A DNA stretch of 31,589 nucleotides, taken from a virus. The notes below the pieces were generated by a model. It was not told the DNA's origin. It made no database searches and saw nothing but the letters and a program-made list of their open reading frames with translations. Made by a program: the position numbers and the translations under genes. Positions within the stretch are counted from its first letter, which is position 1, and each line of letters opens with the position of its first letter. The DNA lies in IMG/VR virus record IMGVR_UViG_3300025120_000296, positions 1-31,589 of that record, one strand, 5' to 3'. Positions 3,435-31,061 of the stretch are shown here, one piece after another.

Positions 3435-4085
3435 ATGCTCTTTTTATATTTTTTATTAACTTTTGCGCTAGGGCAAGAATCTGAAATAGTCGTGGAAGCT
3501 GACGAAAGTATTGTTGTCGAGGCACACAAAGATTTAGAACTATATGTTGCACCAATAACAATGGAAATACATTCAACTGAAGTTGAGGCGATCATCAATA
3601 AACAATCGACGTTTAGGTACGCTTCTACTTACTGGCGAAATGCTAAGTTTAAGAATGAAAGAGGCATATACGAGCCAGTCACAATGCACTCAGATATAAA
3701 AGTATATAACATCGATACTATCGAGTACGTTTGGGACAACTGCAATTATAAGCGTGATGCTAAAAAGTGCGCGTACTTAAACAACCACATGCTACTTGAA
3801 ACTCACATAACAGTCGATGATCATCAAATTGTTGTTAATATGATGTTGTACCGGTCAGACTTGACTGTGATAAGCGCATCAACATACACTAGTCAATCAA
3901 AAATTAGATGGATTAAACAACAAGAGCAGACTGTTATTATGCAATCTGGTCTTATGGGCAATCAGACTATAGTGCACACACCTAAAGAAGAATTACCACT
4001 TAAGTGGTTAATACCCACAAACTTAATGGAAAAACATATTTCTCAGGCAGCAATAAGAATATTTGCCGGAGCAAAGCTTAATTAA
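3435..4085 (+). CDS. Predicted exported protein of unknown function
   Basis: A 216-residue protein with a strong site (AGGAGGT) 5 bases from the ATG. The first 13 residues (MLFLYFLLTFALG) are hydrophobic and end in small residues, like a signal peptide cleaved before Gln14, although the usual positive N-terminal charge is missing. Acidic repeats follow (EIVVEADESIVVEAHKDLEL). The rest looks beta-rich (residues about 40-210), with two Cys (in DNCNYKRDAKKCAY) that could form a disulfide after export. No family is recognised. Phage-coded exported proteins often act at the host envelope during late infection (lysis, exclusion), but nothing here shows which. It overlaps the convergent HExxH gene by 8 bases. 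Confidence 0.75.
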   Translation: MLFLYFLLTFALGQESEIVVEADESIVVEAHKDLELYVAPITMEIHSTEVEAIINKQSTFRYASTYWRNAKFKNERGIYEPVTMHSDIKVYNIDTIEYVWDNCNYKRDAKKCAYLNNHMLLETHITVDDHQIVVNMMLYRSDLTVISASTYTSQSKIRWIKQQEQTVIMQSGLMGNQTIVHTPKEELPLKWLIPTNLMEKHISQAAIRIFAGAKLN

Positions 4086-4419
4086 TATATTGGCGCCAAG
4101 CGTGACGCTCTCTTTTAATAAGATAATCCTCATCATACATTTTTCTGTATGCTTCTTGTTCAAACGGTATGTTCATGTAAGCTTCGTCATTAGTCATTCC
4201 TTTAACTTTACCTTTTAACCAATACCATACATAGAGAATATAAAAGAATATCACCAGAAGCTCTCTCTGCTGCTCTATGTGTATTATTTCATGTCTTATC
4301 GTCACGTCTGACATTTTATTACGTGATATGATAAAAGGAAAAAGAGTAATCGCACTGATACTGATAAAAAGTGAAAGATATTTTGGAATGTTGCTGTTTT
4401 GTATGATAATAGGTTTCAT
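4078..4419 (-). CDS. Small membrane-associated HExxH protein (putative zinc metallopeptidase)
   Basis: A 113-residue reverse-strand protein with AGGAG 8 bases before the ATG. It has two hydrophobic segments (about 13-32 and 54-69) flanking H43-E44-I-I-H47, the zinc-binding signature of metallopeptidases. A downstream Glu (E87 or E89 in IPFEQEAY) could be the third ligand. I recall similar short proteins with a hydrophobic N-terminus, HExxH and FExEAY in bacterial genomes, usually without assigned function, so activity is not shown. Its orientation and its place between two forward genes suggest a moron gene. The ends of this gene and the exported protein overlap tail to tail. Confidence 0.8.
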   Translation of the reverse strand: MKPIIIQNSNIPKYLSLFISISAITLFPFIISRNKMSDVTIRHEIIHIEQQRELLVIFFYILYVWYWLKGKVKGMTNDEAYMNIPFEQEAYRKMYDEDYLIKRERHAWRQYIN

Positions 4420-4754: not shown

Positions 4755-4788
4755 AATCTTGTGGACAAGTATCTCAATGGAGGAAATT

Positions 4789-5334
4789 ATGCCAAAAGTA
4801 AGTTATACGGCCGCAAAGGGTCTTATTCAAGAAACTGGGGCCGGCTTTGACGTTAACGGTTCAAAAAATTCAAACGTATTAGTTCGCTCAGCAGTAACTG
4901 CTCATGATCTATCATCTGTAAATGAAGATTTAACTGTTATCTACACGGGAACAATGGACGGTGCAGTTACACTGCCACAAGCAACAGCAGCAAATACTGG
5001 GATGGTAATCAAGCTATTGCATTCTGTTGATGGTGGTAATTCTGCAGTATCGATTGGTTTTCTAAATTCTGGTTCTACTGTTATGTTTGGAACAATTTTA
5101 TTGTTATCAGATAATGCTGCAGCCGCACCCGATGCTGTTGCTTTGGCTAACAATGCAAAAGTAATTACACGTGATGCGAATGCTACCGACAAAGCAGGAG
5201 GAGCACAAGGGTCACAATATACATTTACGTACTTAGGTGCAAATTTAGTTCATTGCGAAGCGATTGGTGTTGGTGCTGGTGGTCTTACACCTGCAGCTGC
5301 CGCCGGTGCTTCATCTGCAACAGGTATTTCATAA
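4789..5334 (+). CDS. Beta-rich virion-type protein, paralog 1
   Basis: A 181-residue protein. ATG 4789 follows GGAGG with good spacing; an in-frame ATG at 4759 has no site. It is a close paralog of the next gene: by eye about 80% of the first 80 residues match (MPKVSY, GSKNSNV, SSVNED, YTGTMDG-VTLP, NTGMVIKLLHSVD), the middle diverges, and the end matches again (YTFTYLGA, AAGASSATGI). The Thr/Gly-rich, beta-like sequence with a TLP-(Q/N)-AT segment is typical of phage surface, decoration or fibre-type proteins. I infer a capsid decoration or accessory virion protein. The GC-rich structured leader and strong site suggest high expression. Confidence 0.85.
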   Translation: MPKVSYTAAKGLIQETGAGFDVNGSKNSNVLVRSAVTAHDLSSVNEDLTVIYTGTMDGAVTLPQATAANTGMVIKLLHSVDGGNSAVSIGFLNSGSTVMFGTILLLSDNAAAAPDAVALANNAKVITRDANATDKAGGAQGSQYTFTYLGANLVHCEAIGVGAGGLTPAAAAGASSATGIS

Positions 5335-5349
5335 TTAGAGGAGTAAATT

Positions 5350-5895
5350 ATGCCAAAAGTAAGCTATAACGCTAGTCAAGGTCTAATCCAGCAAAACGGT
5401 TCCGGATTCGATCTTAACGGTTCAAAAAATTCTAATGTCATTGTACGTTCTGCAACAACAGATCATAATCTATCATCTGTAAATGAAGATACAACCGTTG
5501 TTTATACAGGAACAATGGACGGTGTAGTTACACTTCCTAATGCGACTGCTAGTAACACAGGAATGGTGATTAAGTTATTGCATTCTGTCGACAGCTCTAA
5601 CACTGAAAGAAAAGTTGGGGTTGCAAATGGAACGCCCCAAACAACTATTTCCGGAACGATTACTTTAATATCTGCAGATGCAACGGATTTGCATGATCAA
5701 GAGGCGTTACTTAACAATGCTGAATGTATTTTGCGCGATGCTAATGCAGTTAATCGAGCGGGTGGCGGGCAAGGAACTTCCTATACTTTTACCTATCTTG
5801 GCGCCCAAAAAATACATTGTAAAGCGCTAGGTGTTGTTAACGGTAGTCAGACACCAAACTTGGCCGCTGGTGCTTCATCTGCAACAGGTATATAA
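5350..5895 (+). CDS. Beta-rich virion-type protein, paralog 2
   Basis: A 181-residue tandem copy of the preceding gene, 15 bases downstream, with its own GGAG site. The N-terminal 80 residues and the last 40 are similar to copy 1. Residues about 82-125 are divergent (SSNTERKVGVANG region), as expected if the centre is an exposed variable face. No catalytic motif is visible. The two genes share one leader and end at the terminator at 5923, so they form a two-gene transcription unit. The role as a decoration or fibre-like structural protein is inferred from composition and position only. Confidence 0.85.
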   Translation: MPKVSYNASQGLIQQNGSGFDLNGSKNSNVIVRSATTDHNLSSVNEDTTVVYTGTMDGVVTLPNATASNTGMVIKLLHSVDSSNTERKVGVANGTPQTTISGTITLISADATDLHDQEALLNNAECILRDANAVNRAGGGQGTSYTFTYLGAQKIHCKALGVVNGSQTPNLAAGASSATGI

Positions 5896-5922
5896 TCGTT
5901 AATTAAAAGTTTAATTGTTATT

Positions 5923-5953
5923 AAAAGCACTCTTTTGAGTGCTTTTTTATTTT
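5923..5953 (+). terminator. Rho-independent terminator after the paralog pair
   Basis: A perfect 10-bp stem (AAAAGCACTC, loop TTTT, GAGTGCTTTT) runs into further T residues. It ends the 4789-5895 unit. Confidence 0.93.
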
Positions 5954-5962
5954 ATATTAAAT

Positions 5963-5974
5963 CAGACCGGTCTG
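5963..5974. repeat. 12-bp perfect palindrome
   Basis: CAGACCGGTCTG reads the same on both strands and has no loop. It lies 10 bases after the terminator and about 44 bases before the membrane protein gene. The form suits a dimeric DNA-binding protein. No repressor is encoded in the window. Confidence 0.45.
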
Positions 5975-6017
5975 GCTTTTCAGGGTAAAATAACCTACTT
6001 ATATACATCACTCGGAT

Positions 6018-6440
6018 ATGATTATGAAGATTGTTTTTGCTATCGCACTTTTGTTTACATGTCACATACTAGCATGGCTACAAGTTAACGGCCCTATTTT
6101 TAATGACTGGTGGAAGGATAATATGCTAATTAGTGCGTTTATTGTATCACCAATAATATTTTGGTGTAGCATTACATACTGGACGATAACATACGAATGG
6201 CTCCAAGCTGTTTGGTCAGTAAAATTTATAGCATACGGCGTAAATATTGTAGTTTTTTCAATTTGTGCCTACTATTTTCTTGGTGAGTCGTTATTTACTA
6301 TTAGGAACGTTGTTAGTATCATATTTGCAACGTTAATGATATTATCACAAGCATATCTACCAAAAACGAGCATATTTAGTGTCGAACAAAAAGCCCCAGA
6401 AAACATCAATAATGACAATGTTACTAGTCGTACTGATTAG
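6018..6440 (+). CDS. Integral membrane protein, four predicted helices
   Basis: A 140-residue protein with hydrophobic segments near residues 4-22, 36-56, 68-88 and 94-112, and a polar tail. Neither ATG 6018 nor ATG 6024 has a clear ribosome site; 6018 is the longer choice. Small proteins with a Trp-rich first loop (VNGPIFNDWW) and a YFLGE motif before the last helix resemble a DMT/EamA-like half-transporter type that I recall from marine phages and bacteria. Its role in infection is unknown. It follows a terminator and palindrome, so it may have its own promoter. It overlaps the next small ORF. Confidence 0.8.
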   Translation: MIMKIVFAIALLFTCHILAWLQVNGPIFNDWWKDNMLISAFIVSPIIFWCSITYWTITYEWLQAVWSVKFIAYGVNIVVFSICAYYFLGESLFTIRNVVSIIFATLMILSQAYLPKTSIFSVEQKAPENINNDNVTSRTD

Positions 6441-6582
6441 TATTTGGCTTGGCTACGAGTTTTTACGATACGATATTGAATGTTTCTGGAGAAAATACAG
6501 GATTGATGAGATAATTAATAACATCTATAATAAAGGAGTAGAGCTATGTCGTCGATTAATAGAGATAAAATCAGAAAATTAA
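6412..6582 (+). CDS. Possible small single-pass membrane protein
   Basis: Starting at ATG 6412 (the more upstream GTG 6379 is possible), this gives 57 residues: a hydrophobic segment at about 2-17 and a charged, Arg/Lys/Glu-rich tail. It overlaps the previous gene by 29 bases and the next by 37. There is no good ribosome site, but translational coupling to the gene ending at 6440 is possible. The membrane-helix-then-charged-tail layout is found in small phage proteins such as holin and spanin partners. It has no specific motif, so it may not be a real gene. Confidence 0.4.
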   Translation: MTMLLVVLISIWLGYEFLRYDIECFWRKYRIDEIINNIYNKGVELCRRLIEIKSEN

Positions 6583-6845
6583 TTTTAAAAGAGTTTAAAA
6601 TGATAGGAATGACCGATATGGGTCATGGTGGAATGAAGCCTATGGGTATGCCTAGCCACAACCCTATGCCAGAAATGGAAATGGGTCACGGACACTCAGC
6701 AATGAAGTCGTCTAAAAGTTGTGTGTCACGTGAAGATTGCTGTGCTGCAATTATGTGCTTGGTTGAATGCTGTGAGTGCCCAATCACAAAGCAAGTAATT
6801 ATGGAATGCTGCCAAGAAATCATGTCTGGCCAACACGATCATTAA
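6546..6845 (+). CDS. Tagged Met/His/Cys-rich protein, putative metal-binding internal protein
   Basis: A 99-residue protein with AAAGGAG 9 bases before the ATG. Residues 4-16 (INRDKIRKLILKE) are a variant of the shared tag and end in L14-K15-E16|F17, a possible gp21 site. Residues 19-53 carry 10 Met and 4 His in MxxM and HxH patterns. The C-terminal part (59-89) has nine Cys: 59, 65, 66, 71, 75, 76, 78, 88 and 89. Met/His-rich segments bind copper in bacterial copper proteins, and Cys clusters bind zinc or copper, so metal binding is a reasonable inference, not a demonstrated one. The stop overlaps the next start (TAATG), so the two genes are translationally coupled. Confidence 0.85.
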   Translation: MSSINRDKIRKLILKEFKMIGMTDMGHGGMKPMGMPSHNPMPEMEMGHGHSAMKSSKSCVSREDCCAAIMCLVECCECPITKQVIMECCQEIMSGQHDH

Positions 6846-8227
6846 TGAAAATAACGAGGCGCCAACTCCAAATGTTAATACAAGAGGAGATACGCAAGGT
6901 GAAGCCGGGTTGCTATAAAGTATACCCGAAAAAACCTAAGCGTGGCAAGAAGCGTCGCAAAGCGTTGTCTAAGAAGTGTAAAACATTACCAGCAGCAAAA
7001 AAGCACTTGGCAGCTATTGAAATTAGTAAGTCAATGAATGAAAAAGATAATCCGTGTTGGGATGGTTATCGACCGGGTGCTAAATCTGGCAAAAAAACAA
7101 AAACTGGAAAATCCGGAAAGACAGTTGCAAATTGCGAAAAGATAAATGAGTCTCTTCTTTTAGAATCCAAGTATGATCAACTCATGGTACAGTTACCAGA
7201 CTTATCTTTATCTGTTTCCTTTGACCAATCTAGCTCTGGCGCGCTAGATCTTCATGATGGAGGTTACTTAATTGCTTCTGCTGTATTACAACATCTGACA
7301 ATTCCTAGTAATCCTTGTATCCCTAATACATTGTCAATTAGTAATATTCACGTCGCGGCTTCCCATCAAAATTTAGGGATAGGGGATCTTTTACTTGACT
7401 TGATCTTTTATCATGCTAGTACATTAGATGGTGGGAAAGGTTACGGGATTACAACTGATTTTGAAGGTGGTAACACACCAATAATCAATTATATGATTCA
7501 GAGAGCGCTCCAAGATCCAGCATATTACAAACAACGTACTAGCGCTGGTAATGACAAGATGGACTTTTTTGAAAAAACTGCAGATCCAAATGATGATTGT
7601 TACGCGGAAGTTTTTGACGAAGCAGGTGTGTATGAACTAATGGATGTTTACGGTTATAGTGAAGAAGAAGCATATAAAGAAGCGGGATTTTCTGATGAAA
7701 ATTTTCCTCTAGGAACAACTAGCTCTTGGCGAAAAAGAGGTATTGAGTCTATGAAGCCTGTGTGGGAAATGCTTACACAAAGACAGAGTCCAGACATACT
7801 TTATCGACCGGTAGCTAGAATGAAGGGGTTTAGACAAGAGTATGATAACACACCCACACCTGAAGAAATACGTGCATTTCAAAGAGATAAAAAACTAAAA
7901 GAAGACAAAGAGCCAAGAAAAGGCACGGGTAAAAAACCAAAAGGCAGTAGTAGGCGATTATATACTGATGAGAATCCTAAGGATACTGTCTCTGTTAAGT
8001 TTCGAACTAAGTCTGATATACAGGACACCCTTTCAAAAAAAAGCTTTAAGAGTAAGCCTCATAATAGACAGTCACAGATAATTAATCTTATACACCAGCG
8101 CGTTCGCGCGGCTTATAAGAACGCAAAAGATCCTGCAACAAAAAAACGTTTAAAGCGTGCATATGATTATGCAAAAGAAAGAAAAGAAGCGAGTAAGCGT
8201 AAGACTCAAAAAATGAGAAAGAAATGA
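6845..8227 (+). CDS. Tagged lysine-rich protein with GNAT acetyltransferase-like domain
   Basis: A 460-residue protein. The start at 6845 is chosen because it begins with the tag (MKITRRQLQMLIQE) and forms TAATG with the previous stop. Modules: tag 1-14 with cut site I12-Q13-E14|E15; Lys/Arg-rich 18-97 including PGCYKVYPKKPKRG and PCWDGY; a second cut site pair, I100-N101-E102|S and L105-L106-E107|S; a GNAT-like domain at about 112-235 with the acetyl-CoA loop pattern Q175-N-L-G178-I-G180 after the strand ISNIHVAA; an acidic stretch 240-290; and a very basic C-terminus 345-460. I infer a protein packaged with DNA and possibly split by the prohead protease into a basic peptide and an enzyme. 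The T4 parallel is the packaged enzyme Alt, though its chemistry differs. No acetyl-transfer activity is shown. Confidence 0.85.
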   Translation: MKITRRQLQMLIQEEIRKVKPGCYKVYPKKPKRGKKRRKALSKKCKTLPAAKKHLAAIEISKSMNEKDNPCWDGYRPGAKSGKKTKTGKSGKTVANCEKINESLLLESKYDQLMVQLPDLSLSVSFDQSSSGALDLHDGGYLIASAVLQHLTIPSNPCIPNTLSISNIHVAASHQNLGIGDLLLDLIFYHASTLDGGKGYGITTDFEGGNTPIINYMIQRALQDPAYYKQRTSAGNDKMDFFEKTADPNDDCYAEVFDEAGVYELMDVYGYSEEEAYKEAGFSDENFPLGTTSSWRKRGIESMKPVWEMLTQRQSPDILYRPVARMKGFRQEYDNTPTPEEIRAFQRDKKLKEDKEPRKGTGKKPKGSSRRLYTDENPKDTVSVKFRTKSDIQDTLSKKSFKSKPHNRQSQIINLIHQRVRAAYKNAKDPATKKRLKRAYDYAKERKEASKRKTQKMRKK

Positions 8228-8925
8228 AAATAACAAGAAAAGAATTGCAAGCGTTGAATGCAAGCGCTATGAGTGAAGGTTTTTTCGATAGATTCTTTGG
8301 TAAGAAAAAAGAAGAAGAAGAAAGTACTAGAGAACTATTGCTTAAGAAAAGGTTTAAAGCGTTGAAGGATGTACATTCAAGACTCGCACGTGGTGAAATA
8401 ACACATGCACAAGCAGAAGAAATTAGGCAAACAATTAACAATCCGATGTCTAGCGAATACAGAACGCCAGAACAACAGTTAGCTGCGATGGATACGGATA
8501 TATCGAAGACTATAATGGACTTTGAGGCATCGCAAAGCGCACATAATAAAAAGCAAAAGCTCAATGCTTTAAAACAAAAAATCAAAGATAAAGAAAGAAA
8601 AAGAATGTCAGAAAAACAAAATTTCAAAGGAGACAAAATGAAAATAACAAGAATACAACTTAGAAAACTAATAAATGAAGCAATCGAAGATTTAGACTAC
8701 TTTGATCAAGGAAAAGTTTTTGCCGCACTAAAAATGCTCCCGGCAGATCACAAGGCAAAAGTAGAAGATTTTTTAAACAATGTTTTAAAAATTACTGCAG
8801 ATGAATTTAACAAAATTGAAGATGACGAGTCGATCACAGCAAAAATTAAAGATTTTGTTAAGGAATATAAATCTAACAATAATATCGAAGCTCTTTTGAC
8901 AAAAATTAAGAATTTGTTACGTTAG
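8224..8925 (+). CDS. Double-tag protein: two tagged proteins in one reading frame
   Basis: A 233-residue frame. Its ATG overlaps the previous TGA (ATGA), so it is translationally coupled. The first half begins MKITRKELQALNASAMSE: tag-like at the start, but the expected I-x-E is degraded (M-S-E). A Lys/Glu-rich coiled region follows (about 22-135). At residue 139 a complete second tag begins (MKITRIQLRKLINE|A), preceded in DNA by a full ribosome site, AAAGGAG, 5 bases before ATG 8638. No stop codon separates the halves. The simplest reading is that two neighbouring tagged genes have lost the stop between them, so the phage may make both the 233-residue fusion and the separate C-terminal protein. 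Confidence 0.75.
   Translation: MKITRKELQALNASAMSEGFFDRFFGKKKEEEESTRELLLKKRFKALKDVHSRLARGEITHAQAEEIRQTINNPMSSEYRTPEQQLAAMDTDISKTIMDFEASQSAHNKKQKLNALKQKIKDKERKRMSEKQNFKGDKMKITRIQLRKLINEAIEDLDYFDQGKVFAALKMLPADHKAKVEDFLNNVLKITADEFNKIEDDESITAKIKDFVKEYKSNNNIEALLTKIKNLLR
8638..8925 (+). CDS. Tagged small helical protein from an internal start
   Basis: In-frame start inside the 8224 gene, giving 95 residues. It has its own AAAGGAG site, ATG 8638 and an intact tag ending I12-N13-E14|A15, the best match in the window to the T4 internal-protein form I-x-E|A. The mature part (15-95) is acidic and helical, with a second half (TADEFNKIEDDESITAKI) lacking any known motif. The strong ribosome site and the N-terminal position needed for a tag argue that this start is used. 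Whether it also occurs as the C-terminal half of a fusion is open. Confidence 0.65.
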   Translation: MKITRIQLRKLINEAIEDLDYFDQGKVFAALKMLPADHKAKVEDFLNNVLKITADEFNKIEDDESITAKIKDFVKEYKSNNNIEALLTKIKNLLR

Positions 8926-9332: not shown

Positions 9333-10484
9333 GTGGCTACATTTGCAAACACAACAAACCCTACTCCTTTTGGAATCTACGATGCAGAATCTGATTTTCA
9401 GACTGATGCAGACAGTATGGTGACCTACGTTAAAAGAAAACTAGGTGACGACATTTTATCAGTGGAGTTAACAAAGAAACAGATATTTGGAAATTTTGAG
9501 GAAGCGACACTTGAGTACAGTTCAATATTAAATCAGTATCAAGCAAAGTCTCAACTAGTAAATTTTCTTGGATTTGCTACTGGTAGTATCTTGAGCGGTA
9601 GTGAAGAAAAGTTTATTAGAGAGAATTTGGAGTTTTTAGGTAGATTTGCAGAACCCTATGCACAAGAGGCCGGTATTGGAGGTTCATATGATTCTGTCTC
9701 TGGCTCAATAACTTTGCAGCAAGGCCAGCAAGATTATAACATATATACGTCTTTAAGTGGCACGTCAGGAGGGCTTTTTGATAATACAAAAGGTAAAATT
9801 AAAATAGACGAAGTTTTTCACTACAATCCCCAGGCAGCCTATCGATTTTTTGATACAACATCTGCGATAAACTATCTTAATAATGAGTTTTCTTTTGAAT
9901 CATTTACTCCTGAAACTGTATTTTATATACTTCCTGTATACGAAGACTTACTACGCGGTGGACAGTTAGATTTATCTAATAGAGTAAGAAGATCAAATTT
10001 TTCTTATAAGATTATGGGTACAAATCTAAGAATTTACCCGATACCTACAAGTGATTCAAAAATATTTTTAAGAATTAGACAATATCCAGACCCAACATCT
10101 CCGTCATACCATGACAGTACAATTCACGGTGTGTCAAACATGAGCAATCTGCCTTTTGGAAACGTGAGATACAATCGTATTAATAGCATTGGTCGACAGT
10201 GGGTCAGAAGTTATACTCTAGCAATTTCAATGGAACAATTAGGTTATATTAGGGGCAAGTTTGGAAGTATACCTGTACCTAATTCTGAGGTCACATTAAA
10301 TAGCTCTGACCTTATTAGTAATGGTAGAACAGACAGAGACGGACTCAAAGAAAAACTAAGAGAAATGCTGGAGTCCATGACATATGACAAATTAATGGAG
10401 GTTCAGTCGCTAAGAGCTGAACAAATAAATAAGCAACTTAAATATGTGCCCATCCCTAATGGCAAAGCAATTTTTTACGGATAA
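9333..10484 (+). CDS. 13: Neck protein, gp13-like
   Basis: A 383-residue protein starting at GTG 9333, with GAGGTAA upstream. It begins a gp13-gp14-gp15 type order and precedes the sheath genes, as in T4. The text (FQTDADSMVTYVKRKLGDD, EYSSILNQYQAKSQ, FHYNPQAAYRFFDTTSA, FTPETVFYILPVYEDLLRGG, LDLSNRVRRSN) is of a type I recall from marine T4-like neck proteins. T4 gp13 is 309 residues, so this copy is longer. It would sit at the portal and connect head to tail. The assignment rests on order and recalled similarity, not on a search. Confidence 0.7.
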   Translation: MATFANTTNPTPFGIYDAESDFQTDADSMVTYVKRKLGDDILSVELTKKQIFGNFEEATLEYSSILNQYQAKSQLVNFLGFATGSILSGSEEKFIRENLEFLGRFAEPYAQEAGIGGSYDSVSGSITLQQGQQDYNIYTSLSGTSGGLFDNTKGKIKIDEVFHYNPQAAYRFFDTTSAINYLNNEFSFESFTPETVFYILPVYEDLLRGGQLDLSNRVRRSNFSYKIMGTNLRIYPIPTSDSKIFLRIRQYPDPTSPSYHDSTIHGVSNMSNLPFGNVRYNRINSIGRQWVRSYTLAISMEQLGYIRGKFGSIPVPNSEVTLNSSDLISNGRTDRDGLKEKLREMLESMTYDKLMEVQSLRAEQINKQLKYVPIPNGKAIFYG

Positions 10485-11156: not shown

Positions 11157-12359
11157 ATGTCAAAAGTACAAATTCCAAGACAAAAAATAGTAATAAAGGA
11201 TTTCGATGGTGATAACGTACCTGTTGACTTCGATTTTCCAAGTATAGGAATTGAAGACATCGATCGATCTGTTTTTGAACTGTTCAATAAGACACTACAG
11301 TTTGAAGTTGAAAGCAAGGGTGTTTCTACTAGAGTTCCTGTTATTTTTGCTACCGGAGAAAGATTTGCCTTGACCCGAAGAAAAAACCCTATTAGAGATC
11401 GTAACAATACAAACATACTTCCGCTAATATCAATTGTTAGAAAAGATTTAGACATAGGTTCTGAACAAGGTGGCAAAAAAACACCAATCTCATTTCGATC
11501 GCAACCTAATTACACTATTAAGAAAAGGTTGTCTGAAAAAGATAGAACGTTTCAAAACTTATTAAATAAAGACGGCCTTCGAAATCAAGATAATGTCGCG
11601 ACTAACAATAATTTTTTAGACACATCAAACAACCTAACAGCACAGCCAGGTAAAACAGCCTCGCGCAGAGATAAGTCAAACTTAAAATTCTCTAGTGCAG
11701 CAACAATTAGTTTGAAGCCTCAAATTAATTCAAATGTTTATGAAATAATTCAAGTACCCTACCCTTATTTTATTGCAATGACCTATGATGTTACATTCTG
11801 GTGTCAGTACATGCAGCAAGGTAACCAAATGATTGAGTACCTTTTAAATAAACTTGACGTGCCAGGCGGAGAATTCTCTATAAAAACTGACAGTGGTTTT
11901 GAACTAGTTGCATTTATTGGTAGTAGCATAACATTTAATAATAATTTTGATAGTATGACAGATGATGAAAGAATTATTAAGTATAATTTTTCACTGACAG
12001 TTCCGGGTTACCTTTTAAATTCTGACGTGCCAGGCCTAGCAAATCAAACGCGCACATATCTCTCGGCGCCTATGATTGATTTTTCATACGAGCAAAGCAA
12101 CAGTCAAGTATACAAAGATTATCAACCTGAAACTGATAAGGAAAAGTTTGACAAGCACGTCTTATCTGATATTACTAATGCAGACCAGTTTAAACTTAAA
12201 AGAGGAGAGAGTAATGGTTCTATCGAACAACTCATAAAAAACCCATTTTCAGGTGAAGAGAATACAGAATATTTAAGGGTAAAAAACGTTAACGCTAGGA
12301 CAGGTGAAACGATTGTTTCTTCAACAATTGTTAAGGAAATTGATAGGCAACATGAATGA
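11157..12359 (+). CDS. 15: Tail sheath stabiliser / tail completion protein, gp15-like
   Basis: A 400-residue protein. Landmarks in the T4 gp15 order are: VPVIFATGERFALTRR followed by ILPLISIVRKDLDIG (T4: VPITYASKEHF and ILPRINLHLVDF), a PYPYFIAMTYDVTFWCQY segment with MIEYLLNKLD (T4: PIKMIYELSIFTRYED), then FIGSSITFNNNFDSMTDDERIIKYNFSLTV ahead of GYLL (T4: VLMSAAIDEAIDGDN then WSLTFEVNGWMY). T4 gp15 is 272 residues. The excess is in a charged linker (about 100-185) and a C-terminal tail. It caps the tail and links it to the neck, and it directly precedes the sheath genes. Confidence 0.8.
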   Translation: MSKVQIPRQKIVIKDFDGDNVPVDFDFPSIGIEDIDRSVFELFNKTLQFEVESKGVSTRVPVIFATGERFALTRRKNPIRDRNNTNILPLISIVRKDLDIGSEQGGKKTPISFRSQPNYTIKKRLSEKDRTFQNLLNKDGLRNQDNVATNNNFLDTSNNLTAQPGKTASRRDKSNLKFSSAATISLKPQINSNVYEIIQVPYPYFIAMTYDVTFWCQYMQQGNQMIEYLLNKLDVPGGEFSIKTDSGFELVAFIGSSITFNNNFDSMTDDERIIKYNFSLTVPGYLLNSDVPGLANQTRTYLSAPMIDFSYEQSNSQVYKDYQPETDKEKFDKHVLSDITNADQFKLKRGESNGSIEQLIKNPFSGEENTEYLRVKNVNARTGETIVSSTIVKEIDRQHE

Positions 12360-12420: not shown

Positions 12421-15400
12421 ATGGCAGAGCAAACATTTAGATCTCCGGGTTTTTTCGAAAGAGAAGTTGATTTAACTCAGAGAACAGTAGAAATCGAAGG
12501 TGTACCTGCAGGAATTATTGGGACAGCTGTGCAAGGGCCAGCATTTGTACCCGTTACCCTAGGGTCTTTTGTAGATTTTGAAAGAAAATTTGGAACGCTA
12601 AACAAAGATCGTTTTGGGCCTTATGCTGTTAACGAGTGGCTAAAGAATAGAACAGCTGTTACTTACGTGAGAGTTTTAGGCGCCGGAGCGGCAAATTCCA
12701 CAGGTGACATACAGACGACACTATCACAAGGTACCGTTAAAAATGCAGGTTTTAGAATAAAAGGAACAGAAGTAGGTAGTGTTGCTGGCGCAAACGATAA
12801 AAGACATAAAGGTGGTGTACAGTTTATTGTTGCTGCACACGACACAAATGAGCTAGAACCGGCAGGATATCCACTTTTTACTGATAGCGATTCTTTTAAC
12901 ACTGCAACGTCGATAAGATTAATTCGTGCAATGTTGTTTACAGCAACTGGTTCGCGTCTTCAGATTCTTGATCATGACGCGTCATATTCAACGGCCAATG
13001 TCGCTGATGACTTAAGCAAGGTTAAAGATTACGACGGGACAAAAGAAGGCGGTACTTTTAAGTTAGTACTTTCTAGCGCATTAGGTGAATCTTACGGTAA
13101 CGACGATTCTAATCCAGGTATTAGAATATATACAGCCTCGTTAGATCCGAATAACAAATACTATATTTCTAGATTTTTAAACACAGACCCAGATAAATTT
13201 CACGAAGAACAGCATTTGTTGTACGCAGACTTTTCTGTTGAGAGTGAACTCGCGAGAGTAACATATAACGCGACAAAAGGTACAGTTGGTATTGCATCTG
13301 GATCTGCTGGTACAAGTTTAGCTAGCGGCGACACTAGCTTAACGTTTAGAGACGTATTTGGTAGGTTTGACACGCGTTATAAATCAGCAAAAACAACTGC
13401 TTTCATAACACAGCCTTTTGGTAGTAAAGAATACAACTTATTTCACTTTGAATCTTTAGATGACGGTGAAGTAAGCAATACAAGAGTAAAAATATCAATT
13501 GCAAACCTTAGAAGATCAACTAACGTAAAATCAAGTTACGGTACATTTTCTGTTTTAGTAAGGGACTACAACGATACAGATACTGATATGAAAATTCTTG
13601 AACAGTTTTCTTTGTGTACACTGGATCCAAGATCAGAAAATTATGTAGCTAACAAAATTGGCGATATGAAAGTTTACTTTAACTTTGATGCCGAGTCTGA
13701 GTCTGAAAGACGCATAAACGTTGAAGGTAAAAGACCAAATCGCTCTAGCTTTATAAGAATCGTTATGGATCGAAATGTTGAAGATCGATTAATACCAGAA
13801 GATTCTTTACCTTTCGGTTTCAGAGGACTTCCTTTATTAAAAACAAACGAAAGTTTGACTGATGATGACACTGTTTTGGAAGGTGGTAGTCGAAGACAAA
13901 GATTAGCACTAGAAGAAGGAACTGTTGGCGTTGCAAATGAATGCTTAACAGGATCGATTTTACCTCCTGTACCTTTTAGATTTAAAGTGACACGTGGCGC
14001 AGTTAACAAGGATTCAACACCAACATTTACTGGTGAACCGGGTTCTCTAGAATTAACAGACAGTAGATTCTTTTGGGGTGTAAAATTAGAAAGCTTACCT
14101 GTGACAGGAACAATAGGTGATGCAGTATTGCAATCGAATGCGTCATCAAACAAAAATAAGCTTGTTGAGAGTTATTCAAAGCTGCTAGGCATACAAAAGC
14201 TAGATGCACTGGTAACAGGTTCTGGTGCTGATAGTTTTAATAATAATAAGTTTACTTTAGCAAAAGTAGCACTTCACAATCAAATAGCACTTACTTCAAC
14301 AATTGAAGGTTCTATCGCTACTGCTATTACAGGAACAGCGTCGGAGCATATGAGAGAAGCAGCATACATTAGAAATGGTGTTAACGAAACCAAGAACTAT
14401 ACAATCACAGATGATGGTTCCACAGTTCACCAAAGAGTAACACTAGCGACTTTAGCTGCTGCACGAAGCGCAAAATACTTTAATAGATTTACTGACTTTG
14501 CAAAGTTTACAAATGTTTTCTACGGCGGCTTTGATGGGCTGAATATTCTTGATAAAGATAATAGGCTGATGAATGATCGAGCTAGCTCTGTTGCCGCAAA
14601 TGGAAAAGCAGACGTAAGTAATGGTACATATACACACCAAAATTTGCATGCAGACTCAAATGCAGGAAGTGGTAAAGATAATAATATTATTAACTCATAT
14701 AGAACAGCTGCTAGAATCATAACTGACCCTTTGGCATCTCGCGTCAATATCGTTGCTATACCTGGTATACGTGAGCCATTTGTTACTGATTTTGTTTCAG
14801 ACTTGACACGCGATTATAGCAAGGCAATATACTTAATGGATATTCCTTCGTTTACAGATCCTAACGCTAGTGGTGTCTCGACAAGAATATTTTCAAAAAC
14901 ACAAAGACCTAATGTTCAAGAAACAGTAGAAACATTTGAGGGGCGTGCCCTGGATAACAGTTATGTTTCCACATATTTTCCTGATGTTGTTTTTGCTGAT
15001 GATGAAAATAATACATCAGTTACTTTACCTTCATCAATTGCAGCTATAAAAGCTCTCGGCTTCAACGATGCAGTTGCATATCCTTGGTTTGCCCCAGCCG
15101 GCTTTAATCGTGGTGCGCTTAGTAATGTTCTAAATTCTAAAGTCAGACTAAATGCGGAAGATAGAAACATCTTATATGAGGCAAGAATAAATCCAATTGC
15201 AAACTTTCCAAATGGTGGGTTTGTGATATTTGGACAAAAAACATTACAACAGGATCGCTCAGCATTAGATAGAGTAAATGTAAGAAGAATGCTTTTAGAA
15301 GTAAAGCGAATCGTTTCAGAAATTGCCAACAGGTTAATTTTTGAGCAAAATACACCACAAACCCGTGCAAGATTTGTTGCTGAGGTAACACCACAACTAG

Positions 15401-15582
15401 CCACAATACAAGCACAACAAGGGGTTGACCAGTTTAAGGTAGTAATGGATTCTACGAATAACTCCTCACTAGACATCGAATCAAATCGTCTTAATGGGAG
15501 AATCGTCTTGGTTCCAACTCGTGCAGTAGAATTTATTGCAATCGATTTCATTATTACAAATTCAGGTGTAAGTTTCGAATAA
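12421..15582 (+). CDS. 18: Tail sheath protein, gp18-like, copy 1
   Basis: A 1053-residue contractile sheath subunit, against 659 in T4. ATG 12421 follows AGGAGAG. The N-terminal signature (FRSPGFFEREVDLTQR, VEGVPAGIIGTA-like, GPAFVPVTLGS, FGTLNKDRFGPYAVNEWL, TYVRVLGAGAA) and the C-terminal core (AYPWFAPAGFNRGAL, LYEARINPIANFPNGG, VIFGQKTLQ, ALDRVNVRRMLLEVKR, VPTRAVEFIAIDF) are those of phage sheaths; the C-terminal strands hook neighbouring subunits. The middle (about 120-750) is expanded and would form outer domains. It is followed after 22 bases by a second sheath gene. No sign of decay is seen. Confidence 0.95.
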   Translation: MAEQTFRSPGFFEREVDLTQRTVEIEGVPAGIIGTAVQGPAFVPVTLGSFVDFERKFGTLNKDRFGPYAVNEWLKNRTAVTYVRVLGAGAANSTGDIQTTLSQGTVKNAGFRIKGTEVGSVAGANDKRHKGGVQFIVAAHDTNELEPAGYPLFTDSDSFNTATSIRLIRAMLFTATGSRLQILDHDASYSTANVADDLSKVKDYDGTKEGGTFKLVLSSALGESYGNDDSNPGIRIYTASLDPNNKYYISRFLNTDPDKFHEEQHLLYADFSVESELARVTYNATKGTVGIASGSAGTSLASGDTSLTFRDVFGRFDTRYKSAKTTAFITQPFGSKEYNLFHFESLDDGEVSNTRVKISIANLRRSTNVKSSYGTFSVLVRDYNDTDTDMKILEQFSLCTLDPRSENYVANKIGDMKVYFNFDAESESERRINVEGKRPNRSSFIRIVMDRNVEDRLIPEDSLPFGFRGLPLLKTNESLTDDDTVLEGGSRRQRLALEEGTVGVANECLTGSILPPVPFRFKVTRGAVNKDSTPTFTGEPGSLELTDSRFFWGVKLESLPVTGTIGDAVLQSNASSNKNKLVESYSKLLGIQKLDALVTGSGADSFNNNKFTLAKVALHNQIALTSTIEGSIATAITGTASEHMREAAYIRNGVNETKNYTITDDGSTVHQRVTLATLAAARSAKYFNRFTDFAKFTNVFYGGFDGLNILDKDNRLMNDRASSVAANGKADVSNGTYTHQNLHADSNAGSGKDNNIINSYRTAARIITDPLASRVNIVAIPGIREPFVTDFVSDLTRDYSKAIYLMDIPSFTDPNASGVSTRIFSKTQRPNVQETVETFEGRALDNSYVSTYFPDVVFADDENNTSVTLPSSIAAIKALGFNDAVAYPWFAPAGFNRGALSNVLNSKVRLNAEDRNILYEARINPIANFPNGGFVIFGQKTLQQDRSALDRVNVRRMLLEVKRIVSEIANRLIFEQNTPQTRARFVAEVTPQLATIQAQQGVDQFKVVMDSTNNSSLDIESNRLNGRIVLVPTRAVEFIAIDFIITNSGVSFE

Positions 15583-15604: not shown

Positions 15605-18600
15605 ATGGCAGAAATAACATTTAAATCAGCTGGTGTAAAGACAAGAGAAATAGACCTTTCTCAACCAACCCGTGTTGGACCGGTTGGAGTACCTGCTGGT
15701 ATTGTTGGAACTTCAAACGAAGGTCCTGCTTTTGTTCCTTTAACGTTTGCAAACTATAGAGATTTTGTGACGACATTTGGCAGGTCTGATGGTGAAAAAT
15801 TTGGACCTATTGCTGTTAATCAATGGTTAGCTAACGCACAGGCAGTATCTTATATTCGTGTATTAGGAGCTGGTAATGGAAAACAAAGAAATACATCAAC
15901 AGGCAAAGTAACTAATGCAGGTTTTGTCGTAGGTGATAGAATAATTCAAGACAACGGAATTATTGGTAACAACTTTTACGCGACTGGCTCTATCGAAGGA
16001 AGAACTTACTTTCTTGGCTGCTTTATGTCAGAGTCAAACGGATCTACAATTTTTAGTGATGCAGGAATACAGAAAACGACAACAATAAGCGGTAAAAGAG
16101 CTACTGCAACCATAACAGTGACAGACGCGGGAGAGATTACTACAGGTAACCAGATATCGTTAGTTACAACTGCTGGTAATACAGTAACAATAACAGGACA
16201 TGCTGACACCAATGCCATGGCTGACACAACAGGCGCATCTACAAACGGAACTTTTGCAGCAAATACAACACTTTCTGGTGGTAGTTCGAACAATATTACC
16301 CAGGCTGCAGCCATTGCAGCTACTATTAATCTACATGATGATTTTACTGCGACTAACGGGGGCACTGCAACTGTAACAATAACACAAAACACTGGTGGGA
16401 CAGCAGGAAATGGTCGCGCAATTACTGTTGCTAAAAACGGTGGTGATGGAGATATTGAAGCACCTGGTGACTTAACTATAGTAAATTTCTCCGGAGGTAG
16501 TGACGGTAACCACGCTGTACCTATCCTTAGGGGTGTTTTACTTGCACCGAGCGGTGTAATTTTGCACTTAAGTGGTAATGCTACTGCTAACGGAAGCAAC
16601 GCGCCAACAAAAGGTATTTCTTCAATAGTAGCATCACCACAAGTTATGGGTCGTGAAGGTGCATTGACCGGTTCTGTCTCGTTGGCGTCACAAGAATTTG
16701 TAATGCTCTTAAATGGCTATAACAACACAGATGTCGCAAAAAAGACACACATTACGGCTTCTTTTGATATCACAGCACCAAATTATTTTGCAAATGTTTT
16801 CAACACAAACCCATTAAAAATAGAAGAAGAAGGTCATTTGTTGTATGGACACTATGATATACATCCTGACATAGCTGCTGTAACTGGTAGCGGTGCTGTT
16901 ACAGCGGGTGGTTTTTCTAAAGGTTGTGCTAACGGCAAAGACAAAGAAGATATCGCGTTGTTACTGACTTCTTCTGTGACTAGAGGTACAACAACTGCTA
17001 ACAAGCCAGTATATGAAGATTTTGAGGATCGTTTTAGTCATGCAAAGTCTCCTTTTGTTATATCACAAGATAATAAGAGTCTTTTTAGAGTCCATTTACT
17101 TTCTGCAGGTGCAGGTGTTTCAAGTAAGTACAAATTCTCAATTGAAAACTTAAGAAGATCGAATTCTTCCATAAACAAATATGGTACTTTTGATTTAATT
17201 GTTAGAGACTTTAACGATACAGATCAAGAACCTAAGTCACTCGAGTCATTTAGGGGTTTAAGTTTAGATCCTGCTTCAGATCGCTACATCGGTCGTGTTA
17301 TTGGTGACCAGCATACATTCTTTAATTTTGACGTAAATCAATCCAGTCAAAAAATAATCGTCGATGGATCGCATCCTGTTAGGTCAAGGTTTATAAGAGT
17401 TGAACTATCTGATGAAGTTGCAAATGGTACTGTTGAGAAAACTTCTTTACCTTTTGGTTTCAGAGGGCCGGATCATCTATTGACAAGTGGTGCTCTATTG
17501 TCGAACGAGGGTGACAACTATTACATAGCACCTGTTTTACAACTTGTGGAACCTCCTATTCCATACCGCGATACAGTTGCTCAAGGCGTTGGTATACAAA
17601 AACGATCAGATGGTAGACTATTTTGGGGTGTACAAACAACTAGAAAAACAAGTACAACTCAACCAAACTTAAACGGCCTTCAAGATAAATCTTTTAATAC
17701 TTTTGTCAAGCATTTTCCAAATCACAGAATTGATTTTCCTAGTTTCTCTGTAGGTAATAACCCAGGTGTCTCTGACGTCGCAGGTACAGTATTAGATTGC
17801 GACAGGTTTAATAATAATAAATTTACACTTAAGAACATCCTGGTAAGAACAGGATCAGATGGGAAAGCTGATCCGGAACAATGGTTAAGTGCGTCATACA
17901 AAAGAGCTGGAGGTATAGGCAGAAATGCTACAGATAAGACTCGTGCTTTTGAGATCACAGACTTAGATAAAGTTGCAAACGTTAAATTTGCCAAGTTTAC
18001 TTTTATTGCACAAGGTGGTTTTGATGGTATAAACATTTTTGATGAAGAAAAGTCCAAACTATCTAATACTGCGATACTTCGTGAAGTTGGTAATGATGAA
18101 AATAGTGCCGGGACAGGAAACAATACAGTTGGTGCTTATAGAAAAGCTATTGACATTATGAGTTCAAAAACTGATGTCGACATTCAAGTTCTTGCCGCAC
18201 CAGGTATTAGACACGCTTCTGTGACAGACTTTGCTACTCAAAAAATCGAAGATCGCTTTGACGCAATCTACTTAATGGATGTTGAAGAACGAGACCAACT
18301 TAATACTGTCATTACATCTTCAGTACAAAAACCTCACGTTCTTAATACAGTAACATCCTTTAAGGGACGTGCGCTTGATTCATCATTTGCAGCTGCATAT
18401 TTTCCAGACGTTATCTTAAATGATCCGGATACTAACACGCTTGTACAGGTACCACCATCAGTCGCAGTATTGGGTGCGTATTCACTTAACGATCGTGTCG
18501 CACATCCCTGGTTTGCACCAGCAGGTTTCGCAAGAGGAGCTTTAAATGCTGTAGAAATGGCATCTGTTCGACTTAATCGTACTAACTTAGACGACTTGTA

Positions 18601-19003
18601 TGAGGCAGATATCAATCCAATAACAGCTTTCCCGGGTACCGGTGTTACTATATGGGGGCAGAAAACTTTACAAGCAGCTAACTCTGCGCTTGATAGAATT
18701 AATGTAAGAAGATTGCTGATTGATGTAAGAAGGAAAGTAAAGAATGTTGCAAATTCTTTGTTATTTGAACCTAACAGAGAAGAAACACTCGAGAGGTTCA
18801 CTGCTTTAGTTAATCCAATTTTACAGAGAGTTCAAGAACAAAGTGGTATTGACAGGTATAAAGCAGTGATTGATACATCAACTACAACGCAAGCTGATGT
18901 AGAAAACAATACCATACGTGGAAAGATATTCTTGCAGCCCACACGTTCAGTTGAGTTTGTAGCACTAGATTTTGTTGTAACAAATGCTGGTTCAAATATT
19001 TAG
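15605..19003 (+). CDS. 18: Tail sheath protein, gp18-like, copy 2 with inserted domain
   Basis: A 1132-residue sheath paralog with a CGGAGAA ribosome site. Both terminal cores match copy 1: GVPAGIVGTSNEGPAFVPLT and YIRVLGAGN at the N-terminus; HPWFAPAGFARGAL, WGQKTLQ, ALDRINVRRLLIDVRRK and PTRSVEFVALDFVVTNAG at the C-terminus. Residues about 158-300 are a Thr/Ala/Gly-rich module absent at the matching place in copy 1, where FTDSDSFN runs straight into TSIRLIRAML. The module looks like a repeated beta domain known from marine phage virion proteins. Both copies are full length, so both may enter the sheath, or each may be used in a different part of it. Confidence 0.95.
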   Translation: MAEITFKSAGVKTREIDLSQPTRVGPVGVPAGIVGTSNEGPAFVPLTFANYRDFVTTFGRSDGEKFGPIAVNQWLANAQAVSYIRVLGAGNGKQRNTSTGKVTNAGFVVGDRIIQDNGIIGNNFYATGSIEGRTYFLGCFMSESNGSTIFSDAGIQKTTTISGKRATATITVTDAGEITTGNQISLVTTAGNTVTITGHADTNAMADTTGASTNGTFAANTTLSGGSSNNITQAAAIAATINLHDDFTATNGGTATVTITQNTGGTAGNGRAITVAKNGGDGDIEAPGDLTIVNFSGGSDGNHAVPILRGVLLAPSGVILHLSGNATANGSNAPTKGISSIVASPQVMGREGALTGSVSLASQEFVMLLNGYNNTDVAKKTHITASFDITAPNYFANVFNTNPLKIEEEGHLLYGHYDIHPDIAAVTGSGAVTAGGFSKGCANGKDKEDIALLLTSSVTRGTTTANKPVYEDFEDRFSHAKSPFVISQDNKSLFRVHLLSAGAGVSSKYKFSIENLRRSNSSINKYGTFDLIVRDFNDTDQEPKSLESFRGLSLDPASDRYIGRVIGDQHTFFNFDVNQSSQKIIVDGSHPVRSRFIRVELSDEVANGTVEKTSLPFGFRGPDHLLTSGALLSNEGDNYYIAPVLQLVEPPIPYRDTVAQGVGIQKRSDGRLFWGVQTTRKTSTTQPNLNGLQDKSFNTFVKHFPNHRIDFPSFSVGNNPGVSDVAGTVLDCDRFNNNKFTLKNILVRTGSDGKADPEQWLSASYKRAGGIGRNATDKTRAFEITDLDKVANVKFAKFTFIAQGGFDGINIFDEEKSKLSNTAILREVGNDENSAGTGNNTVGAYRKAIDIMSSKTDVDIQVLAAPGIRHASVTDFATQKIEDRFDAIYLMDVEERDQLNTVITSSVQKPHVLNTVTSFKGRALDSSFAAAYFPDVILNDPDTNTLVQVPPSVAVLGAYSLNDRVAHPWFAPAGFARGALNAVEMASVRLNRTNLDDLYEADINPITAFPGTGVTIWGQKTLQAANSALDRINVRRLLIDVRRKVKNVANSLLFEPNREETLERFTALVNPILQRVQEQSGIDRYKAVIDTSTTTQADVENNTIRGKIFLQPTRSVEFVALDFVVTNAGSNI

Positions 19004-30014: not shown

Positions 30015-31061
30015 ATGGAATCAATTACAATACATAAAGTAAAGCTTAATAAAGAATATTCACTGGAAAGAAAACAAGGTGAAATAATACTAAGTAATGA
30101 AGGGCTAACAGTATCAATAGATACTGTATCTAAGATTAGACAATTGTCAAATCTAACTAAGATTAAAAATGTACTTGAGTATTATCCAGGATTAGTTTCT
30201 CTTAACATAACTGGTTCCCAAGAATACAGTAAAATATTAGGTAAGAAGAAGTCAATTGAATATAATGACTACATTTTAAAAGAATTAAACTTCACAAAAC
30301 CTATGATTACTTCATATCACACAAAAATATTTCCAGTTAGAAAAAAATGTTATAGTAATCTATCACAAGTATTTCTAAAAGACAGTGCTTTAGAATTACC
30401 AATTTATGATCACTCTGGTGTTACTGGCAGGACTAGTATAAAGAAAGGCTTTAATTTTCTCACAATGAAAAAGTCTGAAAGGGTGCAATTAACACACCCA
30501 AATAAAAATCTAGTAGAAGTTGACTTTAAATCTTGCGAGCCTTTCTTCTTTTTAAAAAGCCAGGGTGTGGAAATAGAAAGTGATGACGTTTATAGCTGGT
30601 TAATGGAAAAATATAACATACACAACGTTGCTAGAGATAAATTTAAAAGAGGTATGTTGTCAATCATCTACGGCGCAAATACAAAAACAACATCAAGGAT
30701 TATGCAAGTACCTCATAAAAAAGTAGTTTCTGTCAAAGAGGACTTAGGTATAAATAATTTAGAAAAAAAGTTAAGAAGTGAGTATGATGAGAACGGGTTT
30801 ATTTTAAATTATTACGGAAGACCCATTACTAGTGATTCTAACTTAGTAAACTACTGGATACAATCATCAACAGTTGATTTTTGCTCATTAGCTTTTAAAA
30901 GCTTTTGTGATAAAAACAATTTAAAAGCATGCTTTTTTGTCCATGACAGTATGACTTTTTGCGTCGATAGTAAAAATTTGCCAAAAATAACAGCAATAAC
31001 AGAAATCAAAGAATGTATTTCAGAAATAAGTGTGCCTGTTAAATTTACAGTTTTTTCTTGA
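30015..31061 (+). CDS. Miniature family A DNA polymerase
   Basis: A 348-residue protein with the ordered motifs of a Pol I-type palm/fingers. They are TGRTSIKKGFNFLTM (Pol I: TGRLSS...NLQNIP) at 138-151, motif A VEVDFKSCEP with D170 and E175 (Pol I D705/E710), motif B R207-x3-K211-x7-Y219-G (Pol I R754, K758, Y766), then YYGRPI, NYWIQSSTVDF (Pol I: IQGTAADI) and motif C FFVHDS with H310-D311. Pol I has HDE; the change to Ser is the main oddity. No 3'-5' exonuclease fits in the 130 N-terminal residues, and the A-to-B spacing (37) is shorter than in Pol I (49). T4-like phages normally use a family B polymerase, so this would be an extra enzyme. It adjoins baseplate genes and lacks a ribosome site. 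Activity is inferred from motifs. Confidence 0.85.
   Translation: MESITIHKVKLNKEYSLERKQGEIILSNEGLTVSIDTVSKIRQLSNLTKIKNVLEYYPGLVSLNITGSQEYSKILGKKKSIEYNDYILKELNFTKPMITSYHTKIFPVRKKCYSNLSQVFLKDSALELPIYDHSGVTGRTSIKKGFNFLTMKKSERVQLTHPNKNLVEVDFKSCEPFFFLKSQGVEIESDDVYSWLMEKYNIHNVARDKFKRGMLSIIYGANTKTTSRIMQVPHKKVVSVKEDLGINNLEKKLRSEYDENGFILNYYGRPITSDSNLVNYWIQSSTVDFCSLAFKSFCDKNNLKACFFVHDSMTFCVDSKNLPKITAITEIKECISEISVPVKFTVFS

Follow-up and report, generated by a model that had tools for sequence, protein, structure and literature searches.

Phage enzymes that enter the host together with the genome are known from few systems, namely T4 Alt, the N4 virion RNA polymerase and P1 Dar/Ddr. Alt is a host-modifying enzyme with a short N-terminal propeptide; the enzyme is cut at both ends after (L/I)xE by the S77 prohead protease gp21, packaged and injected (PMC5694885, PMC9026906), the cuts lying at ITE-6 and LTE-619 (PMC5694885). 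The small basic internal proteins IPI-IPIII of T4, which are ejected with the DNA, also start with a short capsid-targeting sequence (CTS), and in the case of IPIII the first 10 residues are enough for packaging (PMC9026906). The gene described here probably encodes a packaged polyprotein of a T4-like marine phage, which would be cut in the prohead and whose acetyltransferase would be injected with the DNA.

The window, that is the whole stretch of DNA analysed (31,589 nucleotides, record IMGVR_UViG_3300025120_000296 of IMG/VR), is a 31.6-kb virus record that belongs to a T4-like phage. It carries gp23 at 364-2292 (Pfam Gp23, E 3e-78), with the closest isolate gp23 in Flavobacterium phage immuto and Microcystis phage Mel-JY01, a head-tail adaptor-like gene at 9333 and gp15 at 11157, followed by sheath-like genes. 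Between gp23 and the adaptor gene there is a run of small genes, several of which start with MKITRxQLRxLIxE. The gene of interest has the open reading frame given in a preliminary description of this DNA (ATG at 6845, stop at 8227, 460 aa), and its ATG shares bases with the stop codon of the tagged gene before it (TAATG). Its parts are the following (an arrow marks a candidate cut):

6845..8227, plus strand: whole gene, coding for the 460-aa tagged fusion protein (open reading frame and translation; fused homologue at 5695-7071 of relative L014)
6845..6886, plus strand: N-terminal tag MKITRRQLQMLIQE, residues 1-14, a candidate capsid-targeting propeptide ending in I-Q-E↓E (recurrence of the tag)
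6887..7150, plus strand: basic module 1, residues 15-102, pI 10.2, ending in I-N-E↓S (composition; relatives at the same locus with other C-terminal parts)
7142..7165, plus strand: candidate prohead-protease sites INE-102↓S103 and LLE-107↓S108 at the junction of module 1 and the GNAT part (residues also found in the tag of a standalone GNAT, L001 MKITRRQLNSLISE↓SLLLE↓S)
7166..7894, plus strand: GNAT domain with C-terminal extension, residues 108-350, 27.3 kDa, pI 4.6 (AF2, PDB, profile and Pfam)
7367..7384, plus strand: putative acetyl-CoA loop QNLGIG, residues 175-180 (sequence; alignment of 39 relatives)
7895..7903, plus strand: candidate cut site L-K-E353↓D at the junction of the GNAT part and module 2 (LKE also in L014; relic at the C terminus of L001)
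7904..8224, plus strand: basic module 2, residues 354-460, 12.6 kDa, pI 10.7 (found alone with a short tag in L005, L007, L008 and L010)

The protein is under purifying selection, with dN/dS values between 0.05 and 0.21 over its parts (~0.2 for the GNAT part, 0.05-0.07 for the basic modules), which rules out a chance reading frame. A frameshift or an assembly fusion is ruled out by the presence of the same fusion on an independent 202-kb contig (L014). No second known conflict domain was found in the 460 residues with Pfam, PHROGs, NCBIfam and PADLOC, and the chain consists of one enzyme domain and two basic modules. The second basic tail seen at the outset is borne out (residues 354-460, pI 10.7); that the basic modules are “DNA-binding-like” is only a reading from their composition.

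The middle part of the protein had been called GNAT-like on account of its loop, and a confident AF2 model of this domain, built from an alignment of 39 sequences (pLDDT 84.3, pTM 0.83), does match GNAT enzymes in fold; the model from an alignment of only 3 sequences reached a pLDDT of 35 and was discarded. The best PDB matches of the AF2 model in Foldseek are GNATs (E 6e-4, probability ~1). Nearly all the top PDB matches are GNAT, with human GCN5 at the head (Z 9.4, 122 residues, 2.8 A) and the toxins AtaT, TacT (TacT3) and KacT (Z ~8) and RimI close behind. The Z values obtained with the model are equal or almost equal and point to no particular substrate, and the GCN5 match does not point to one either, because GNATs with different substrates have similar folds. 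Two rounds of searching, the first with the conserved loop region as query, gathered a family of ~40 members in which C-I-P-x-T, T-[ST]-D, K-x-T-x-x-G-N-D-x-x-D and D-P-x-D-D-C are near-invariant. The profile of this family matches mainly GNAT-fold chains in the PDB, and Pfam Acetyltransf_1 is matched by 21 of the 40 members (best E 2.3e-5), the window domain alone scoring 15.1 bits, under the gathering cut-off of 20.7 bits. The Q-x-x-G-x-G loop is present at Q175-x-x-G178-x-G180, with G178 kept in 30 of the 38 aligned relatives and G180 in 31; some relatives have a degenerate version of it, and no catalytic base was found. The model and the family support the assignment of residues 108-350 as a GNAT-type acetyltransferase domain, for which catalysis is predicted.

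The tag already seen in the preliminary description (M1-E14, MKITRRQLQMLIQE) is present in the 460-aa protein and has the form of a short N-terminal propeptide with an (L/I)xE end, IQE-14 closing its 14 residues; the site has the same position in the relatives L014, L004 and L070. In 200 kb of the L014 contig the tag stands on 18 of 269 ORFs versus 0.02 in shuffles, which shows that it is not due to chance, and P1 is E in 13 of the 16 strict matches. P1' after the tag of the window protein is E, with A, S or T commoner elsewhere. On the same contig the tag is also carried by genes distant from the head cluster, so it could serve another purpose, and a search of the literature on the tag sequence and on the capsid-targeting sequences of uncultured marine phages yielded no relevant paper. 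Across the GNAT family the N-terminal segments are of the type MKKILNEWRKFLLKE↓G, MNNHKLIMEGWRKFINE↓S and MKITRRQLNSLISE↓S, and [LIFVM]xE[ASGTN] occurs within the first 25 residues of 35 of the 39 members, versus 57 of 256 other plus-strand ORFs of the same loci and 9% of shuffles, the 35 members being related to one another and hence not independent counts. Past residue 25, (L/I)xE sites are rarer in the family than expected (28 versus 45).

The inner sites I100-N-E102 and L105-L-E107 lie, as previously claimed, at the junction of basic module 1 and the GNAT part, and a fourth site, L351-K-E353, was found on the C-terminal side of the GNAT part. The number of (L/I)xE motifs, the cut motif of T4 gp21, is near expectation in the window protein (4 versus 3.4). 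The four sites (14, 102, 107 and 353) are all at most 8 residues from three boundaries, an arrangement equalled by 11 of 20,000 shuffles with boundaries that were picked after the sites had been seen. The fused protein of L014 keeps all four, as IQE-14, IKE-102, LLE-107 and LKE-351, and has two further (L/I)xE sites inside its GNAT part. In the genes of L004 and L003, which are without GNAT, there are only the tag site and a site between modules 1 and 2 (INE-102 in L004, ITE-126 in L003), and therefore the GNAT sits at a position that is a candidate protease site in its absence too.

The comparison of relatives shows that the modules are real units. L014 has the same fusion as the window, L004 has the same gene minus the middle domain (NCEKINE↓RKEPRKGTGKK), and L001 and L015 have only the middle domain, behind a tag of its own. 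At the 5' junction INE-SLLLES of the window corresponds to LISE-SLLLES, the tag end of the standalone protein, so that the inter-module “cut sites” match the tag end in the standalone form; at the 3' junction ERKEP is common to L014, L004 and the extreme C terminus of the standalone L001. The fused window sequence is 77% identical to the standalone L001 and 65% to the fused L014, and the tree, in which the order of the five close relatives is not resolved, needs two fusion/fission changes. The relic LKERKEP at the C terminus of L001 suggests that this protein lost the modules. Most members of the GNAT family are standalone proteins without a lysine-rich partner.

Module 1 was also used as a query, and the carrier that it retrieved lies between gp23 and the adaptor gene wherever the flanks allow a check. 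In some relatives it stands alone; in others it is followed by module 2, by the GNAT together with module 2, by a ~170-residue domain or by a short conserved tail. The ~170-residue domain occurs in L073, L074, L075, L076, L077 and L079, with segments ESG...NPFQL or ETG...GIFQ; by eye it resembles a lytic transglycosylase, and the Pfam search gave no significant match for it, only a weak and unrelated one. Module 2 is found as well as the C-terminal part of large proteins (L006:3697-6414, L009:3-1991), the one in L006 with a cytidylyltransferase-like domain (Pfam E 2.6e-7). With the whole protein as query a single match was obtained, in pelagiphage HTVC033P, which covers module 2 only. No relative of the GNAT part of the window and related loci was found in the phage collection, where the matches were to Streptomyces phages at chance level (E 6), and none of the isolate phage records searched has a member of the wider family. 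Bacterial and archaeal genomes scanned with two peptide patterns contained no relative, NCBIfam and PADLOC gave nothing, and PHROGs gave one weak match, from one relative.

Most members of the family are located in T4-like head gene clusters, often with the gene of the S77 prohead protease directly downstream. Of the 28 loci, most have the order MKHNKK gene, MPIN gene, one to three GNATs, a gene that we take to be DUF1360-like, and S77 protease (E 3e-33). Two cultured relatives, in which no GNAT was found, have the order terL, gp20, MKHNKK gene, ..., protease, ..., gp23, on the basis of which the GNAT slot is assigned to the prohead core cluster. In the clade of the window the protease is not a neighbour of the gene, which is located between gp23 and gp13. 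The window begins downstream of the place expected for the S77 protease, which is seen in relatives and, upstream of gp23, in the L014 contig (E 5e-29). The occurrence of CTS-like N termini within T4-like head clusters lends independent, if circumstantial, support to packaging of the GNAT protein.

From the computed fold, family, tag, site positions, modularity, purifying selection and head-cluster location of the relatives we infer packaging, cleavage, injection, catalysis and a target, in the following way. The N-terminal tag would work like the T4 capsid-targeting sequence and dock the protein in the prohead core, where the S77 protease would cut after each (L/I)xE. The tag would be lost in this way and three products set free: basic module 1 (~10 kDa), the acidic GNAT (~27 kDa) and basic module 2 (~13 kDa). 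The two basic products resemble the T4 internal proteins and may sit on the packaged DNA, and the GNAT would be ejected with it to acyl-modify a host target (a protein, a tRNA or a small molecule) at the start of infection, in parallel to what Alt does with ADP-ribose.

Other explanations concern either the place or the activity of the enzyme. It is unlikely, if still worth weighing, that the tag and the (L/I)xE sites are unrelated to the head and that the protein is an ordinary late or accessory acetyltransferase of the infected cell: tagged genes do occur away from the head genes, and phage GNATs that are not packaged are known, such as Rac (PMC7552054), but the tags recur on non-orthologous proteins of the gp23-gp13 locus and across the head-located GNATs, and the sites are confined to boundaries. 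It appears rather improbable that the GNAT is no injected effector but acts during head assembly in the producing cell, where it would adjust DNA compaction by acetylating polyamines or lysines, the latter in core proteins or in its own lysine-rich modules. Such a role would fit an enzyme fused between two lysine-rich modules, a histone acetyltransferase (GCN5) as the top structural match and a wider family that is found among prohead genes; however, the standalone state of most members leaves them without that partner, the candidate cuts would part the enzyme from the modules, and the resemblance to GCN5 is one that GNATs share irrespective of substrate.

Two further possibilities are given very little probability. 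An injected poison of translation, akin to the tRNA-acetylating AtaT, TacT and KacT, would stop host protein synthesis at entry; the presence of AtaT, TacT3 and KacT among the structural matches (Z ~8), the head location and the tags agree with it, but these toxins are tied with many GNATs of other substrates and a total block of translation would harm the phage as well. Equally doubtful is a domain that kept the GNAT fold, lost catalysis and has a structural or binding role in the head or neck. Some paralogues have a degenerate coenzyme loop (QEFG, GFQ) and the conservation of the family is strongest in an unusual segment after the usual core, GNDxFDY...DPxDDC, which speaks for it, yet the clade of the window keeps the canonical Q-x-x-G-x-G loop and the domain is under purifying selection.

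Besides the packaged and injected acetyltransferase that we favour, the locus as a whole can be given a wider reading. The tags recur at the gp23-gp13 locus on proteins that are not orthologous, and, as far as the sequences go, the locus resembles a constant delivery part with a variable payload. We suggest tentatively that it may be a cargo-swapping site, in which a constant tagged basic carrier is combined with interchangeable polyprotein payloads that the prohead protease would free in the head. It is likewise conceivable, with the same reserve, that the payload is a GNAT, the ~170-residue domain or none, and that strains inject different enzymes. An alternative within this reading is a histone-like system of the virion, with the GNAT acetylating its own lysine-rich partners. 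A swappable carrier at one locus suggests that other injected payloads might be found by their tag and not by their fold.

Several other genes of the window deserve mention. Directly upstream of the fused gene, 6546-6845 codes for a small, possibly metal-binding protein with a tag and many Cys, His and Met residues (MGHGGMKPMGM...CVSREDCCAAIMCLVECCECP); it keeps this position in L001, L004, L014 and L070, in front of the fused gene or what corresponds to it there. Downstream, the single open frame 8224-8925 has one tag at 8224 (MKITRKELQALNASAMSE) and another at 8638 (MKITRIQLRKLINE), the latter preceded by an AAGGAG of its own (8627), and may be either a fusion of two tagged proteins or a frame with an internal start. 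The tandem paralogues at 4759-5334 and 5350-5895, perhaps capsid decoration proteins, start with MPKVSYxAxxGLIQ and vary strongly in number and sequence among the relatives. A small minus-strand gene at 4078-4419 with RHEIIHIEQQ (zinc-peptidase-like HExxH; no Pfam match) is kept on the opposite strand at the same place in relatives. Two successive tail-sheath-like genes, each of more than 1000 aa, lie at 12421-15582 and 15605-19003, and 30015-31061 codes for a 348-aa protein with a weak match to DNA polymerase family A (E 4e-4) and little space for an exonuclease domain.

With Alt the window protein shares the proposed plan of a short propeptide and cuts at both ends of an enzyme; it differs in fold and chemistry (acyl-CoA in place of ADP-ribose) and in the position of the enzyme, since Alt does not lie between basic modules. 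The likeness to IPI-IPIII is in the short targeting sequence followed by basic parts, whereas no sequence relation to them was found and an enzyme is here flanked by two basic modules in one chain. Among the GNATs, those of polyvalent proteins, also predicted to be packaged and injected as parts of multidomain proteins, are RimI-like, belong to phages of the portal type and often stand beside an ADP-ribosyltransferase domain (Iyer et al. 2017, PMC5512222); they are set apart by their description, the window protein having a T4-style architecture of tag and protease sites. Rac of the phiKMV-like phages is a phage GNAT that acts on host physiology and leads to cleavage of the RNA polymerase alpha subunit, but it is made in the infected cell, and the paper reports no virion packaging, tag or basic modules (PMC7552054). 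Enzymes of the phage Mu Mom family also belong to the GNAT superfamily; Mom, however, modifies adenine in DNA, and no specific Mom match was seen among those of the window domain. The earlier suggestion that a packaged acetyltransferase would bring a different chemistry to early host takeover is thus new in part: packaged phage GNATs had already been predicted (PMC5512222) and Rac acts on host transcription (PMC7552054), which makes an injected GNAT a variant of what is known. What is added here is a family of GNATs with head-type tags, encoded within the head gene clusters of uncultured T4-like phages; the isolate phage records searched contain no match to this family, and PHROGs essentially lacks it. 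It leads to the predictions that the 14-residue tag packages cargo, that the S77 protease cuts the four named sites and that the freed domain is an acyltransferase. Acetylation may be one way in which such phages take over the host cell.
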